A DNA stretch of 64,000 nucleotides. It comes from Thermococcus thioreducens (lineage in GTDB: Archaea; Methanobacteriota_B; Thermococci; Thermococcales; Thermococcaceae). Position 1 is the first letter of the stretch. Each line of letters begins with the position of its first letter. Shown piece after piece: positions 2,440 to 7,975 of the stretch. The stretch is taken from positions 248,001 through 312,000 of the forward strand of contig NZ_CP015105.1 in assembly GCF_002214545.1 (NCBI RefSeq), read 5' to 3'. Both the position numbers and the translations under genes were made by a program. A model generated the notes under the pieces. The model did no database searches, had not been told where the DNA came from, and saw nothing but the letters and a program-made list of their open reading frames with translations.

Positions 2440-4812
2440 CTATCCGCCTTCAGTCCCGTGAAGGACGTCGTCTATTCTGAACACGCCCCTGTCGAGCACG
2501 GTCTTCTTCTGGACGTAGGTGTAGCGGACGACGACACTCCCGTTCAAGTTACCGGGCAGGGTAAATTTGTCCTTTCCTTTAACCCCGTACCACTTCTTGA
2601 AGACGAGGGTGCCGTTGTCGAGGTAGCCGTAGATGCCGATGCCAGTTCCCGTGGCGTTTGTGAACCTGAGGACCACTGAGCCGTTCTCGGCGGTAACAAC
2701 AACGTTGGGGTGCTCAAACCGGAATATCTTGATGTAGCCCCCGTCGGAATAAAATGGCTCGTACTCTTCAGGATACTCATCGGTGAACATTAGCCTCGCC
2801 AGCGGTGTGTTGAATGCTTTCCCGTTCATCAGCACGGCGTAGCCGTAGTTCAGGTTGATGTAAACGTAGGCATCGGCGTTCGGCCTGCCAGTGAGAGCCA
2901 CACTCTTCAAGGATTTTTCTCTCTCAACGAAAACTTCTTGCGGGATCACTATGGCGCTCCCTACGTTGACCTGAACGCTCCACCGGTCGCCCTTGGGCAC
3001 TGCCATTATCGAATACCCCCTGGAGGAAAAGAGGAGCATCCCGCCAGCCGATGACACCAACGGCAGGGGGATCATGGCGTACTCGGAGGGTGAGGCTCCC
3101 GCCGTGTTGAGCACCGAGCCGAACTTCATTATGATATCGTATGAAACGATTATGTAATCAACTCCAAGATTCATAAGGTATCTCTCGTTCTTCAGTCCGA
3201 GGTAGTACTGGGCAACTGCCCTGTTTGGACCTCCCTGGGCAACGGGCGCTCGTCCAGCGAAGTAAGTCACCCAGTGCCCCTGATCCCACCAGCTCAGGAC
3301 GACGTCGTTCATATTGGAGTTTTCTTTTAGATGGCTCAAAGCTTTCTCCCAGTATTCGTTGGTCAGAGGTTCAACCCCAAGGGTGGCCTGGAACCCCTGG
3401 TAAGCTCCCACGAGGGGTATGAGGATCAGTAGCCCAGACAACGCCAGTGCGGAGCTTTTCTTTGGAGAAAACCTTGAATGGAGAACCTCGTAAAGTGCGA
3501 TTAACCCAATTCCAGCACTTAGTGCTATCGAAATAGAGCCTATGAACAGGAACCTCGTCCACAAGATGACCATTGGAACCTGAACCAGAAGGGTTCCGAG
3601 GAGAAGGAAATCGCCGAGTTTTACCCTGGATGGGGAAAACCTCAATGCAAAGAGCGGTAGGATGACTCCTCCTAAACCATAGGCTTCCCACCAGTCTTTA
3701 AAGGCTGTTCTCTGTGTCTCGACTATTGGCGCCTCCGGGAACAGTCTCAGGAGGAGTTCGCTGACCCTTCCGTAGTACGTCACCGCTAGCCACAGAAACA
3801 CGACGAATCCGATACCAACGACCAGTATCCGAGTCTTCTTCCCTCTGAGAAACCTCGAAATAACAAGGAGCAGCAGGATGGTCAGAACCGCCAGAGGGAT
3901 TGCGTACTTCAGGTAAGCCAGCAGGAATGCATCTTTTATCCACCCAAAGTTCAATCCTAGTTCTTCTGCCAGTTTCTTGCCCAGCCAGCGGTTGTAGCCA
4001 ACCATTCCGTACCCGAATATTCCCCCGAGAGAGTTTGCAATCACTGCCCCGAGGGCTGTTGAGGCCGCGAGGATCAATGAGTCTATCAGATAGCCCTCTC
4101 TTTCGAGGAGAAAGGCCCCTACAGAGAGTAAGACCGCGTTCGCCAGGAGAAACGCGAATATCGGGTAGTAGGCCTGCCAGAATATCGCCGAAAAACCACC
4201 TGCAAGGGCAGGTATCAGGTAAAATGCCAGCCTCCCGTACCTCCATTTTCTCGGCTTCCAAGTTAGGGCTAGTGCAATCCCAGACAGGGCCACGCTGTAC
4301 CAGAAGAGCATGTAGTTATCTCCCCTGTAATAGCCGGCCATCGAGCGGAAGACATGGCCGAAGAGAACCGCCAGAAAGAACGCCGAGAGAAAGGCCTCCT
4401 TCTTTCCATAGAGCCTCAAAATGGCCAGATACGTGAACAGCACAGTCAGAACCCCAAAGATGACAGGCGTTATTCTGAATGCATCATAGAGAGACACTCC
4501 AAAGACTGAAAGGAACTTATTCACGTAAGCTGGGGTCATCCAGAGACCGAGGGGGTGGAAATTGTGTATCTGGAAACCCCACGGACCGATAGCATAGGGG
4601 AAAAAGTTCACCCACTCCCCCTTCTCCAACGCATACCTTATGTATGCGAGGTGGAAGTAGGGGTCATAGCCGAGGAGGTATTTAAAACGCATCGGGAGGA
4701 GCCTGATAGCGGAGGCTAAAACCGTTAGAATAACGGCAGCGTACTTAGGGGTTAAAATCAGGCCACACACCACAGCAAGCCTCTTTCTGATCTCGTCAGC
4801 ATCCATCAACAT
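2440..4812 (-). CDS. aglB: AglB/STT3-type dolichyl-phosphooligosaccharide-protein glycosyltransferase
   Basis: The 790-residue protein transfers lipid-linked glycan to Asn of N-x-S/T sequons on the outer face of the membrane. The N-terminal ~480 residues are a multi-span membrane domain with the catalytic DPYFHL motif near residue 50 and a TIxE-like PIVETQ segment near 365. The soluble C-terminal part carries the hallmark SWWDQGHW (WWDxG) near 505 and a DIIMKFGS segment matching the archaeal DK-type motif. The start is ATG 4812 or ATG 4806, the latter better spaced from GAGGGGG. It follows the nucleotidyltransferase gene by six bases, so the two are almost certainly one transcript. A small hairpin (GGCGG/CCGCC, 2432-2447) overlaps its stop codon. 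Confidence 0.93.
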   Translation of the reverse strand: MLMDADEIRKRLAVVCGLILTPKYAAVILTVLASAIRLLPMRFKYLLGYDPYFHLAYIRYALEKGEWVNFFPYAIGPWGFQIHNFHPLGLWMTPAYVNKFLSVFGVSLYDAFRITPVIFGVLTVLFTYLAILRLYGKKEAFLSAFFLAVLFGHVFRSMAGYYRGDNYMLFWYSVALSGIALALTWKPRKWRYGRLAFYLIPALAGGFSAIFWQAYYPIFAFLLANAVLLSVGAFLLEREGYLIDSLILAASTALGAVIANSLGGIFGYGMVGYNRWLGKKLAEELGLNFGWIKDAFLLAYLKYAIPLAVLTILLLLVISRFLRGKKTRILVVGIGFVVFLWLAVTYYGRVSELLLRLFPEAPIVETQRTAFKDWWEAYGLGGVILPLFALRFSPSRVKLGDFLLLGTLLVQVPMVILWTRFLFIGSISIALSAGIGLIALYEVLHSRFSPKKSSALALSGLLILIPLVGAYQGFQATLGVEPLTNEYWEKALSHLKENSNMNDVVLSWWDQGHWVTYFAGRAPVAQGGPNRAVAQYYLGLKNERYLMNLGVDYIIVSYDIIMKFGSVLNTAGASPSEYAMIPLPLVSSAGGMLLFSSRGYSIMAVPKGDRWSVQVNVGSAIVIPQEVFVEREKSLKSVALTGRPNADAYVYINLNYGYAVLMNGKAFNTPLARLMFTDEYPEEYEPFYSDGGYIKIFRFEHPNVVVTAENGSVVLRFTNATGTGIGIYGYLDNGTLVFKKWYGVKGKDKFTLPGNLNGSVVVRYTYVQKKTVLDRGVFRIDDVLHGTEGG

Positions 4813-4818
4813 TCCCCC

Positions 4819-5814
4819 TCATTCTCCCCTCTGTATCTTCGCGTGCCCTCCAACCAAACTCTTCCGCAGCTCAAGGTTTCTTATCTCGCACTTCTCATCT
4901 ATGATTGAGCGCCATATGGTCGAATTGCGTATTATCGTTCCACGGAATATTATCGAGTCGCTTATGTCGGAGTTCTCTATGACGCACTCCTCCCCTATGT
5001 AGGCGTAGGGCCCTATCATCGACCGGCCGAGTATTTTGGCACCGCGCTTTATGACAACCGGAGGTATTATCTTCGCGTAGGGACTGATCTGGATCTCCTC
5101 CACATGGCTTTCCTTCAGGAGGGTCTTCAGTGCCTCAAGGTAGCTATCGGCGGAACCTATATCGTACCAGTACTCTGAAAAGCGGTACGCCCTTATTTCC
5201 TCGCCCCTTTCGAGTAGCCACTGGATGAAGTAGCCGGGAGAATCACGGTTGCCGTTGGAGAGGTACTCGTCTATGCGCTCCATAACCCTTCTCGGAAAGA
5301 CATAAACGCCGGTGCTCACGAGGGTTGACCTTGGTGCAGCAGGTTTCTCCTGGAAGGAGATAACCCTGTCGCCCTCAAGAACCACAACACCGTAGCGCTT
5401 AGCGAGCTCAAGGTCACCGACGTCGTAGACCGCTATAAGAGTCCCCCCGTCGTAGGAGTTCAGAAAGTCCCGGAGGGAAAAGGAGAACAGGTTGTCCCCT
5501 GCTATCACGAGGTAGTCATCTGGGCCAAGCTCATCCAGTGCGTTTTTTAGCGCCCCGATTGTCCCAAGCTTTTCATCCTCGTGGAGGGTGTCCTCGACTA
5601 TCAGGCCCACCCCATACCGCTCCGCATACTGCCGGAAGTGTGCTTCAAAGAACCGGTTCGTTGAGACGTATGTATCCAGTTCCAGCTCCCCCGCCTTCTC
5701 CAGAATATAGTCGAGTATCACGCGGTTCCCAACTGGAAGCAGGGCCTTGGGATTGTCCTTTGTGATCGGCCACAACCTCGTGGCATATCCACCGGCCATG
5801 ATTAGAACTTTCAT
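4819..5814 (-). CDS. Sugar-phosphate nucleotidyltransferase (NDP-sugar synthase)
   Basis: The start is ATG 5814, preceded by GGTGGT and followed at once by the strand and G-loop MKVLIMAGGYATRLWP. The protein has 331 residues. The N-terminal ~230 residues form the nucleotidyltransferase domain, with the signature GGYATRLWPITKDNPK, the AGDN metal/nucleotide motif near residue 110 and the EKP motif near 165. The rest looks like left-handed beta-helix hexapeptides (PYAKIIPPVVIKRGAKILG). Such enzymes make dTDP-, UDP- or GDP-sugars; the sugar cannot be read from sequence. It is upstream of aglB and divergent from an epimerase, which places it in supply of N-glycan sugars. Confidence 0.88.
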   Translation of the reverse strand: MKVLIMAGGYATRLWPITKDNPKALLPVGNRVILDYILEKAGELELDTYVSTNRFFEAHFRQYAERYGVGLIVEDTLHEDEKLGTIGALKNALDELGPDDYLVIAGDNLFSFSLRDFLNSYDGGTLIAVYDVGDLELAKRYGVVVLEGDRVISFQEKPAAPRSTLVSTGVYVFPRRVMERIDEYLSNGNRDSPGYFIQWLLERGEEIRAYRFSEYWYDIGSADSYLEALKTLLKESHVEEIQISPYAKIIPPVVIKRGAKILGRSMIGPYAYIGEECVIENSDISDSIIFRGTIIRNSTIWRSIIDEKCEIRNLELRKSLVGGHAKIQRGE

Positions 5815-5861
5815 AGCTACCACCGGGGTCGTCTCTAGAGCTGAAGGGGGATATGCCCCAA

Positions 5862-5878
5862 ATGTATTTAAATTATTC
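5862..5878. promoter_or_regulatory. Single AT-rich element between divergent glycosylation genes
   Basis: Only 89 bases separate the two start codons (5814 and 5904). They contain one clear TATA-like element, ATGTATTTAAATTATT, which reads as a TATA box on both strands. It lies about 34 bases upstream of the epimerase ATG and about 55 upstream of the nucleotidyltransferase ATG. Both genes may share it or compete for it. Confidence 0.5.
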
Positions 5879-5903
5879 CGTTTCATCAACTGCGGTGGTA
5901 GGA

Positions 5904-6857
5904 ATGAAGGTTCTCGTCACTGGGGGTGCAGGCTTCATCGGTTCCCATCTCGTTGATGCCCTGATGGAGAGGGGATACAATGTTAGGGTTCTCGACGACC
6001 TGAGTGCTGGAAGTCTGGACAATATCAAACGTTGGCTTGAGCATGAGGGGTTCGAGTTCATAGAGGGGGACATGAGAAAGAGGGAAATTGTGGAGAAGGC
6101 CGTTGAAGGCGTAGATGCAGTCTTCCACCTAGCCGCCAACCCTGAAGTAAGGATCGGCTCCCAGAGTCCCGAACTGCTCTACGAGACCAACGTCCTCATA
6201 ACGTACAACCTGCTCAACGCAATGAGGGGTTCCAGCGTCAGATACCTTATATTCACGTCATCATCGACGGTCTACGGTGACGCCAAGATAATACCCACCC
6301 CTGAGGATTACGGCCCCTTGGAGCCGATAAGCGTCTATGGTGGGGCAAAGCTCGCCGCCGAAGCCCTGATAAGCGGCTACGCCCACACCTTCGGGTTCAG
6401 GGCCCTGATCTTCCGCCTGGCAAACATCATAGGCGAGCGCTCCAATCACGGCGTCATCTACGACTTCATAAACAAGCTGAGAAGAAACCCGGAGGAACTT
6501 GAGATACTCGGGGACGGAACGCAGAGGAAGAGCTACCTGCACGTGAGCGATACCGTTGATGGAATGCTCCACATTTTCGAGCACTTCGGGAAGGAAGGCA
6601 AAACCTATGACGCTTACAACCTCGGAAACAACGACTGGATAACGGTAAGGGAGATAGCTGAGATAGTCAGCGAGGAAATGAAACTAACGCCGGTCTTCAG
6701 GTTCACCGGCGGCGTCGACGGTGGCCGCGGCTGGAAGGGCGACGTCAAGTTCATGCGCCTGAGCATAGAGAAGGCAAAGAAAACGGGATGGAAACCGAAG
6801 CTCAACAGCTATGAAGCCGTGAGGAGAACTGTTAAGGAACTCCTGTCGCATCGTTAG
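5904..6857 (+). CDS. NAD-dependent nucleotide-sugar epimerase (GalE-like, extended SDR)
   Basis: The start is ATG 5904 (GGTGGTAGG just upstream), giving 317 residues that open with the Rossmann NAD-binding loop VTGGAGFIGSHL. The catalytic set of extended short-chain dehydrogenases is present: TSSSTVYGD near residue 115 and YGGAK (YxxxK) near 145. Members interconvert UDP-glucose/UDP-galactose or the N-acetyl forms. Position next to an NDP-sugar synthase and aglB suggests a role in N-glycan sugar supply. The exact sugar is unknown. Confidence 0.88.
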   Translation: MKVLVTGGAGFIGSHLVDALMERGYNVRVLDDLSAGSLDNIKRWLEHEGFEFIEGDMRKREIVEKAVEGVDAVFHLAANPEVRIGSQSPELLYETNVLITYNLLNAMRGSSVRYLIFTSSSTVYGDAKIIPTPEDYGPLEPISVYGGAKLAAEALISGYAHTFGFRALIFRLANIIGERSNHGVIYDFINKLRRNPEELEILGDGTQRKSYLHVSDTVDGMLHIFEHFGKEGKTYDAYNLGNNDWITVREIAEIVSEEMKLTPVFRFTGGVDGGRGWKGDVKFMRLSIEKAKKTGWKPKLNSYEAVRRTVKELLSHR

Positions 6858-6873
6858 ACCGTGAGAATAGTGA

Positions 6874-7030
6874 GGGGCACTGTACGAAAGAGGCCGGAGT
6901 GAAGTTCCACTCCTTGCAAATCCTTCCCTGTTAATTGCGGTTCCATGTTCCGTTGTGGCTCATGAAACCACTCGGGTCAGGTTTGTTCCGGGGTGAAGCT
7001 TTCGCTTCAGTCTCCCCCGCACGGTACCCC
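6874..7030 (-). ncRNA. Putative structured non-coding RNA, about 157 nt
   Basis: This 394-base gap has no credible protein gene. Read on the minus strand it folds well. A 12-position closing stem pairs 7030-7019 with 6885-6874 (one C-A mismatch, two G-U pairs). Inside are a hairpin with a GAAA tetraloop (TGAAGC 7009-7004 / GCTTCA 6999-6994, extended by GGGG/CCCC), a nine-pair hairpin (6969-6961 with 6947-6939), a CCTG/CAGG helix (6981-6978 with 6930-6927) around it, and a six-pair hairpin (6913-6908 with 6901-6896). TTTATATA at 7063-7056 lies the right distance upstream for a start at the first G of the closing stem. Its identity is unknown; Hgc-type RNAs of hyperthermophiles are one possibility. 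Confidence 0.6.
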
Positions 7031-7052
7031 TCAAATACTACTGGGGGCTTTA

Positions 7053-7065
7053 ACTATATAAACCT
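7053..7065 (-). promoter_or_regulatory. TATA box of the putative minus-strand RNA
   Basis: Minus-strand GGTTTATATAGTT has a consensus archaeal TATA element. About 26 bases downstream lies the first base of the closing stem of the putative RNA. The element can also be read as TATATAAA on the plus strand, but no gene follows there before the tRNAs. Confidence 0.55.
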
Positions 7066-7215
7066 TCGCTTTTATTTATTGCAAAATTTTATACTAACTT
7101 TTCGAAATAATTTCACAGAATTGGGTATTCTCCACTGTTCTGGGGGCCTTTTTACTGCGGTTTTATGAACCCTGCCGTTATTTATCTACCCTGACCGTTG
7201 GAGGTTTACCGAAAT

Positions 7216-7251: not shown

Positions 7252-7329
7252 GCCCCGGTGGTGTAGCCCGGTCAATCATGCGGGACTCTCGATCCCGCGA
7301 CCCGGGTTCAAATCCCGGCCGGGGCACCA
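7252..7329 (+). tRNA. tRNA-Glu (anticodon CTC)
   Basis: The cloverleaf is complete: acceptor GCCCCGG pairs with CCGGGGC, the anticodon stem CGGGA/TCCCG closes the loop CTCTCGA (anticodon CTC, reading GAG), and the T arm is CCGGG-TTCAAAT-CCCGG. The terminal CCA is encoded. No intron is seen. Confidence 0.95.
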
Positions 7330-7342
7330 GAATCCTTCTCGT

Positions 7343-7420
7343 GGGCCCGTGGCTCAGCCTGGTCAGAGCGCCCGCCTGATAAGCGGGAGGTCCGGGGTTC
7401 GAACCCCCGCGGGCCCACCA
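7343..7420 (+). tRNA. tRNA-Ile (anticodon GAT)
   Basis: The cloverleaf is complete: acceptor GGGCCCG pairs with CGGGCCC, the anticodon stem CCCGC/GCGGG closes the loop CTGATAA (anticodon GAT), and the T arm is CGGGG-TTCGAAC-CCCCG. The CCA is encoded. It starts 13 bases after tRNA-Glu and is probably co-transcribed. A perfect 10-bp hairpin begins four bases after the CCA and could help end or process the transcript. Confidence 0.95.
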
Positions 7421-7423
7421 TAA

Positions 7424-7975
7424 GAAACTTTTGCCAAGCAAAAGTTTCATCAAAGTTGGTAGCTCCTTTTGGAAAACTAAATCCTTGGGTGATTTCTCAC
7501 CCAATGGCCGTTTTAAGTGTGAGAACTTTTCAAGTTGCTCCTCCGGTGAGGGTTTAACTTTAAATCGGCGCCCTTTGGGCGTCAAGAAGAGAGTAACCCC
7601 TTTTGAGGTTTATCCTCAACATGTTCTCGCTGAAGAATGGACACTTGTTGGTAAAAATCCCTTCATCTGGGCATTTCACGAAGAGCTACGTGCTTTTGGT
7701 GAAGCTTTTTCCAAAAGCTTCAGCGCTGGCGGAAAATTAAGCGCTCTTTTAAAGTGGGCTCATTTAAGTAGGGTGTCTTTTGACTTGCTCTTCTGTGCGT
7801 GTTTCTCTCTAAAAATGCGCCCAAAGGGCGCCGATATTGAAGTCAAAACCGTTTAATAATCTGTATCTGGAAACGCAAACACTCACAAAAGGGCTCCTTG
7901 CTAAGAGGAATCATAAACTTGATGAAACTCTGCCCAGCAAAGTTTCTTTGGTGAAGCTTTTTTCAAAAGCTTCAG
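7424..7975. repeat. Palindrome-rich intergenic repeat block
   Basis: About 550 bases hold related palindromes. A 10-bp perfect hairpin sits at 7424-7448, and a diverged inverted copy of it at 7924-7946. TTGGGTGA/TCACCCAA forms a hairpin at 7485-7504. A 16-base element CGGCGCCCTTTGGGCG at 7566-7581 recurs exactly, inverted, at 7818-7833, with similar flanks. A hairpin TGAAGCTTTT/AAAAGCTTCA at 7700-7722 recurs directly at 7952-7974. An open frame at 7431-7856 could encode 141 residues but has an odd composition, no clear RBS and spans the palindromes, so I treat it as doubtful. The layout suggests a degraded miniature mobile element or a Thermococcales intergenic repeat family. Confidence 0.6.

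Follow-up and report, generated by a model that had tools for sequence, protein, structure and literature searches.

What is encoded in the gap that follows an epimerase gene in Thermococcus thioreducens? An initial annotation of the stretch analysed here (64,000 nt of contig NZ_CP015105.1, hereafter the window) had proposed that this gap carries a minus-strand gene for a structured noncoding RNA, unassigned to any family. The epimerase gene itself (5853–6857, plus strand; Pfam Epimerase, E = 7e-58, NAD-dependent) converges on the proposed RNA, leaving only about 7 bp between the two 3′ ends. Further along, both on the minus strand, lie a sugar nucleotidyltransferase gene (4819–5889; Pfam NTP_transferase, E = 4e-41) and a gene for an AglB/STT3-like oligosaccharyltransferase (2440–4812), the latter with weak matches to the Pfam AglB/STT3 core under the curated cut-off. 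On the opposite side, the genes for tRNA-Glu(CTC) and tRNA-Ile(GAT) (7252–7420, plus strand) diverge from the RNA, which is one of the recurring positions described below.

To begin with the fold, the minus strand of 6874–7065, the span originally proposed, has a predicted folding energy of −75.8 kcal/mol (z = −4.8), which none of 200 shuffled sequences equalled; the plus strand of the same span folds more weakly (z = −2.9). Rfam 15 covariance models, including the Hgc and H/ACA families singled out in the initial annotation as well as all others, gave no match at the gathering cut-off or at E≤10, and none at the RNA in its relatives. The proposed span itself required revision, as it begins inside the promoter and loses the last bases of the closing stem. 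The RNA proper extends over ∼173 nt of the minus strand, from a 5′ end at about 7036, placed there because of the spacing from the TATA box, to a 3′ end at about 6864, where conservation stops abruptly past the last bases, CTCACTATTC. Two covariance models built from relatives, R1 (173 bits) and R2 (157 bits), match the window at 6865–7037 on the minus strand. The stretch had also been called GC-richer than its flanks. This holds against the upstream spacer (53% for the RNA, 40% for the spacer) and fails against the epimerase gene (53%) and the window as a whole (54%).

A TATA box had been predicted ahead of the closing stem, and the sequence TTTATATAG is found there (7062–7054, minus strand), some 20–30 nt before the predicted 5′ end and at the same distance in nearly all relatives. 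It belongs to a conserved promoter region of about 80 bp (7038–7117, minus strand) that includes a degenerate inverted repeat, TTTTGC/GCAAA. When 18 loci of genus g1 were compared in 15-nt bins, mean pairwise identity was 0.65–0.90 over the promoter and ∼0.2–0.4 farther upstream, and the BRE/TATA region was among the best-conserved parts across unrelated contexts. At the other end of the RNA in these 18 loci, directly past the last bases, identity goes from 0.90 down to 0.35 and on to 0.26. With identity running from about −80 through the start and falling sharply past the RNA, the conserved unit is discrete and consists of ∼80 bp of promoter and ∼173 bp of RNA. Judged from this pattern of conservation, the RNA gene very probably has a promoter of its own. 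The inverted repeat TTTTGC...GCAAA lies directly upstream of the TATA box (∼7065–7086) and occurs in relatives too, while another genus has TTTGAT...ATCAAA at the same site. The repeat looks like an operator and would be a candidate site for some regulator.

Relatives were sought in 94 Thermococcales genomes, of which about 30 contained clear relatives by BLAST. These were aligned as A1 (19 sequences from one genus), A2 (10 sequences, mostly from two other genera) and A3 (all 29). Model R1 was built from the aligned relatives, and a strict re-search with it matched 38 of the 94 genomes, spread over all six genera. A broader alignment of 27 diverse sequences, A5, gave model R2, which was run with looser filters on the genomes having weak or no R1 matches. 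This added intact copies in G086 and G092, bringing the total to ∼40 of 94, and also recovered decayed copies in G015, G022, G061 and G080. About half of the order is thus without an intact copy, and in genus g3, which we take to be Pyrococcus, only one of nine genomes has a match to R2. A pattern scan of 84,980 named species, a partial survey from which many isolate genomes are apparently absent, returned Thermococcales and one chance match, and no RNA was found in the phage and plasmid collections searched. The family is so far found only in Thermococcales. The short pattern also occurs in a Clostridia contig (L107) and two viral contigs (L110 and L111), which have no model match and were set aside as chance occurrences.

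The predicted fold is a closed, four-way-junction-like structure comprising a long stem P1, a nearly invariant hairpin P2, a variable arm P3 and a hairpin P4, all given here in minus-strand coordinates. The closing stem P1 had been reported with 11 of 12 pairs; it is present, and in full it covers 18 positions (5′ strand 7033–7016 with 3′ strand 6888–6871), with one C·A mismatch and several G·U pairs. Across relatives, 94–96% of P1 cells are paired and 10–11 of its pairs show double changes. An inner continuation pairs GAGACU (7014–7009) with GGCCUC (6895–6890). P2, the GAAA tetraloop hairpin of the initial annotation, lies at 7008–6995, has the sequence GAAGC-GAAA-GCUUC and yields little covariation because it is conserved by sequence. 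P3 (6985–6917) has a basal helix (6985–6980 with 6922–6917), an internal loop and an apical hairpin (6971–6937) that had been counted as nine pairs and has 11 bp; its helices carry double changes, and the arm varies between subgroups. Lastly, P4 is the six-pair hairpin GGAGUG-GAACUU-CACUCC at 6913–6896, as originally described. Its stem sequence varies by subgroup, and the apical motif around GRAACUUCAC is retained.

The alignment of Thermococcales relatives, which the initial annotation had named as a check, gave strong compensatory change. In A1, 93.8% of cells are paired, compared with 37–47% when one strand is slid by 1–3 columns, and both sides have changed in 18 of 55 pairs, a number reached by 2 of 500 shuffles. 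In the more diverse A5, 85.5% of cells are paired, 37 of 55 pairs have changed on both sides, and the covariation score is 0.429 versus 0.294 for shuffled and 0.10–0.16 for slid alignments. For P1 alone, parsimony reconstruction on the A5 tree gave 12 events in which both partners changed and the pair was kept, besides many single changes via G·U. The locus therefore combines conserved structure with compensatory change beyond the controls, as a structured RNA gene would. On this comparative evidence it is very probable that we are dealing with a real, independently transcribed structured RNA family.

The strand proposed for the gene was borne out as well, since the RNA strand outfolds its complement in all 14 homologues tested. 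The complement also folds well. Small open reading frames in the relatives differ in length and frame, and none is common to them. In many homologues, a rod and the junction fold have nearly equal energy, and the rod is favoured in some g5 copies. Several homologues (L081–L083, L092 and L095–L098) are nearly self-complementary from end to end, which lets the rod rival the junction and gives the opposite strand a covariance-model score as well. The size of the RNA, together with the rod-like fold of some subgroups in which a long hairpin competes with the junction, would suit a global transcription or translation factor, such as a 6S-like RNA that binds RNA polymerase, with its location among the glycan genes described below being incidental. 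We consider this improbable, as a global housekeeping RNA would not be expected to be missing, in intact form, from about half of the order.

Could the RNA be a modification guide of an unrecognised subtype, either H/ACA or C/D? Many guide RNAs are present in Thermococcales (PMC4247193) and the hairpins here are stable, but the family has no Rfam match at E≤10 and the hallmarks of neither class were seen by eye. An H/ACA RNA would have a hairpin with a pseudouridylation pocket, a K-loop or K-turn and a 3′ ACA; the 3′ flank of the stem instead reads CUCACU or CUCAUU in the alignments, and the RNA ends in CUCACUAUUC or CUCAUUUUU, with no 3′ ACA box. A C/D RNA would have boxes C (RUGAUGA) and D (CUGA) beside a guide stretch, and we saw no conserved boxes in A1, A2 or A5, nor any kink-turn or K-loop. 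A guide function is thus very unlikely. The orphan RNAs HgcC, HgcE, HgcF, HgcG and SscA/sRk33, known from hyperthermophilic archaea (Klein 2002, cited in PMC5316973; Phok 2011, PMC3124441), resemble the present RNA in being intergenic, structured and of unclear function. The present RNA differs in that it has no Rfam match, is patchily distributed, is sometimes present twice in a genome and has a tie to glycan islands.

This tie is seen in the genes around the RNA. A marker of glycan or PAPS metabolism lies within ∼6 kb on either side in 40 of 41 RNA loci. The same holds for 5 of 40 control regions, placed at round-number coordinates of RNA-carrier genomes; for this comparison the markers had been picked from the RNA loci themselves, and kinship was ignored. 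An AglB-like gene is nearby in 17 of 41 loci (1 of 40 controls), and an ATP sulfurylase or APS kinase gene in 23 of 41 (0 of 40 controls). Among near-complete genomes, ATP sulfurylase is encoded in 34 of 36 that are RNA-positive versus 19 of 38 that are RNA-negative (Fisher p = 2e-5, kinship ignored). Two exceptions lie outside recognised glycan islands: the intact copy L093 and the remnant in G015. A glycan-regulatory role is one that we propose tentatively, and its odds fall short of even.

No gene for a protein partner was constantly present beside the RNA. DUF234 ATPase genes, frequent but not constant, lie near it in 18 of 41 loci and AAA_14/DUF4143 ATPase genes in 5 of 41, compared with 1 of 40 controls each, and such genes directly adjoin the RNA in some loci (several within L063–L102). 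In L086 the directly adjoining gene (3114–5870) encodes a UDP-glucose dehydrogenase with an intein that has Intein_splicing and LAGLIDADG domains.

The orientation of the flanking genes is also recurrent. In 33 of 40 loci the gene downstream points towards the RNA, often stopping within ∼60 bp of its end, and in 32 of 41 the gene upstream is divergent; with this arrangement the RNA appears to form a transcription unit by itself. The same convergent layout keeps alive a role in cis, in which the element would form a boundary of glycan operons by ending, insulating or stabilising the converging 3′ ends, or would dampen the converging genes by convergent transcription. The good folding of the complement would fit such a role. 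However, a terminator needs neither a dedicated, highly conserved promoter nor a nearly invariant P2, the RNA strand outfolds its complement, and the RNA persists beside varying neighbour genes. We therefore regard the boundary role as rather unlikely.

How, then, did the RNA come to lie beside so many different genes? The position after the epimerase gene and next to the tRNA-Glu/Ile genes is shared by the window and its relatives. Elsewhere the RNA lies between the nucleotidyltransferase and aglB genes, or beside genes for UDP-glucose dehydrogenase, a MocA-type dehydrogenase, TauE or ATPases, among others. The nucleotidyltransferase/aglB site is empty in G000, G017 and G015: the gap between the nucleotidyltransferase and AglB-like genes is 6 bp in the window and ∼40–50 bp in G017 and G015. 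One copy per genome is usual. G043 has two, 28 kb apart and one at each main position, whose RNAs are 99% identical beside diverged upstream DNA, which suggests gene conversion or constraint. Two copies are also found in G040 and G087. Copies next to tRNA-Glu/Ile and copies next to aglB form direct repeats flanking variable genes, and in G040 and G043 they are 22–28 kb apart. In the decayed copies it is mainly the 3′ half that survives: L113 (G022, ∼1600–1660), L125 (G080, ∼1575–1640), L114 (G061) and L112 (G015). In the G022 remnant, which lies beside an intact aglB-like gene, an internal deletion has fused the promoter and TATA box to the 3′ half.

The main rival reading is a selfish or hitch-hiking unit, kept in play by the variation in position, the empty sites and the decayed copies. 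Here the promoter and RNA would be a cassette without any host role that moves, or is transported, from site to site, its closing stem serving as inverted repeats, and glycan islands would merely be where exchanged DNA accumulates. The discrete unit seen in several junctions, the empty sites in G000, G017 and G015, the remnants in G022, G061, G015 and G080 and the second copies in some genomes all agree with it. Such a cassette would nonetheless hardly be expected to occur usually once per genome and so seldom elsewhere (40 of 41 in glycan/PAPS loci). Additionally, its stem changes by compensation, where repeats recognised by a transposase would keep a fixed sequence; the promoter, which lies outside the stem, is equally conserved; and there is neither a constant protein partner nor, at the RNA units inspected, any target-site duplication. 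Miniature inverted-repeat elements are similarly short, noncoding and bounded by inverted repeats, and occupy several sites, as the present unit does, empty sites included; they differ in that the repeats of the present unit covary, its external promoter is conserved and it is nearly confined to one functional neighbourhood. On balance we think the cassette an unlikely explanation, though one to be taken seriously.

A host function linked to surface glycans is favoured by the near-confinement to glycan/PAPS islands, the usual occurrence in one copy, the compensatory changes and a hairpin that hardly varies. Our best reading, to which we assign a probability of roughly 40%, is an independently transcribed, stable RNA of ∼170 nt from a non-Rfam family that acts in trans and is tied to the expression of surface glycans. 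Transcription would start from its own BRE/TATA promoter, and the RNA would then act in trans as a ribonucleoprotein, which is probable because the neighbouring gene changes. P2 and the apical motif of P4 may be the protein-binding parts. The complex would adjust the expression of genes for cell-surface glycosylation and sulfation, and the RNA would be passed on, and exchanged, together with the glycan island to which it belongs. Because the adjacent gene varies, no single target is evident, and the absence of an intact copy from about half of the order indicates that the RNA is not essential there. As the copies form direct repeats around variable genes, the unit could both regulate an island and promote its replacement by recombination; that the RNA controls islands for surface glycans and sulfation, or marks them for exchange, is a more doubtful proposal than the trans-acting RNA itself.

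If the RNA does regulate glycan and sulfation genes, it would add an RNA layer to archaeal surface variation, with a bearing on virus receptors and self-recognition. Even without an assigned function, the alignment, fold, promoter and distribution describe a well-supported RNA family that Rfam-based annotation has missed. To our knowledge, orphan structured RNAs with such comparative support are rare in archaea, and we know of none tied to protein glycosylation. The linkage to glycan loci, the discrete unit at several positions, the patchy distribution and the decayed copies all go beyond what had been claimed from the window.

We found no description of the RNA in the main texts of openly licensed PMC papers. 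Three genomes, G026, G041 and G039, carry a second, divergent paralogue ∼150 bp from the first copy (L072 6237–6402, L074 6228–6392 and L075 6268–6433, all on the minus strand). These paralogues are 87–95% alike between genomes and ∼70% like their neighbour copies. G026, with its two copies, is presumably Thermococcus onnurineus NA1. In that strain, dRNA-seq yielded 57 intergenic ncRNAs, of which the text names only some, matched by Rfam (PMC5316973). One or two of the 57 may be the present RNA, already listed there without, as far as that text goes, a name or family.

Two further RNAs invite comparison. sRk48 and sRk52 of Pyrococcus abyssi are related to the 3′ ends of OrfB (IS607/IS200-605) transposase genes, include a K-loop and have copies in all Pyrococcus surveyed (PMC3124441). 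Like the present RNA, they are ∼130–190 nt long, have a BRE/TATA promoter and a stem-loop nearly invariant in sequence, and are repetitive in Thermococcales. By description they can be set apart, since the present RNA lies between glycan genes and its model is absent from eight of the nine g3 genomes.

Lastly, directly after the tRNA-Ile gene the window has a perfect 11-bp inverted repeat, GAAACTTTTGC-CAA-GCAAAAGTTTC (7424–7448). It occurs once in the window, is not expected by chance and is possibly a terminator or the remnant of a repeat.
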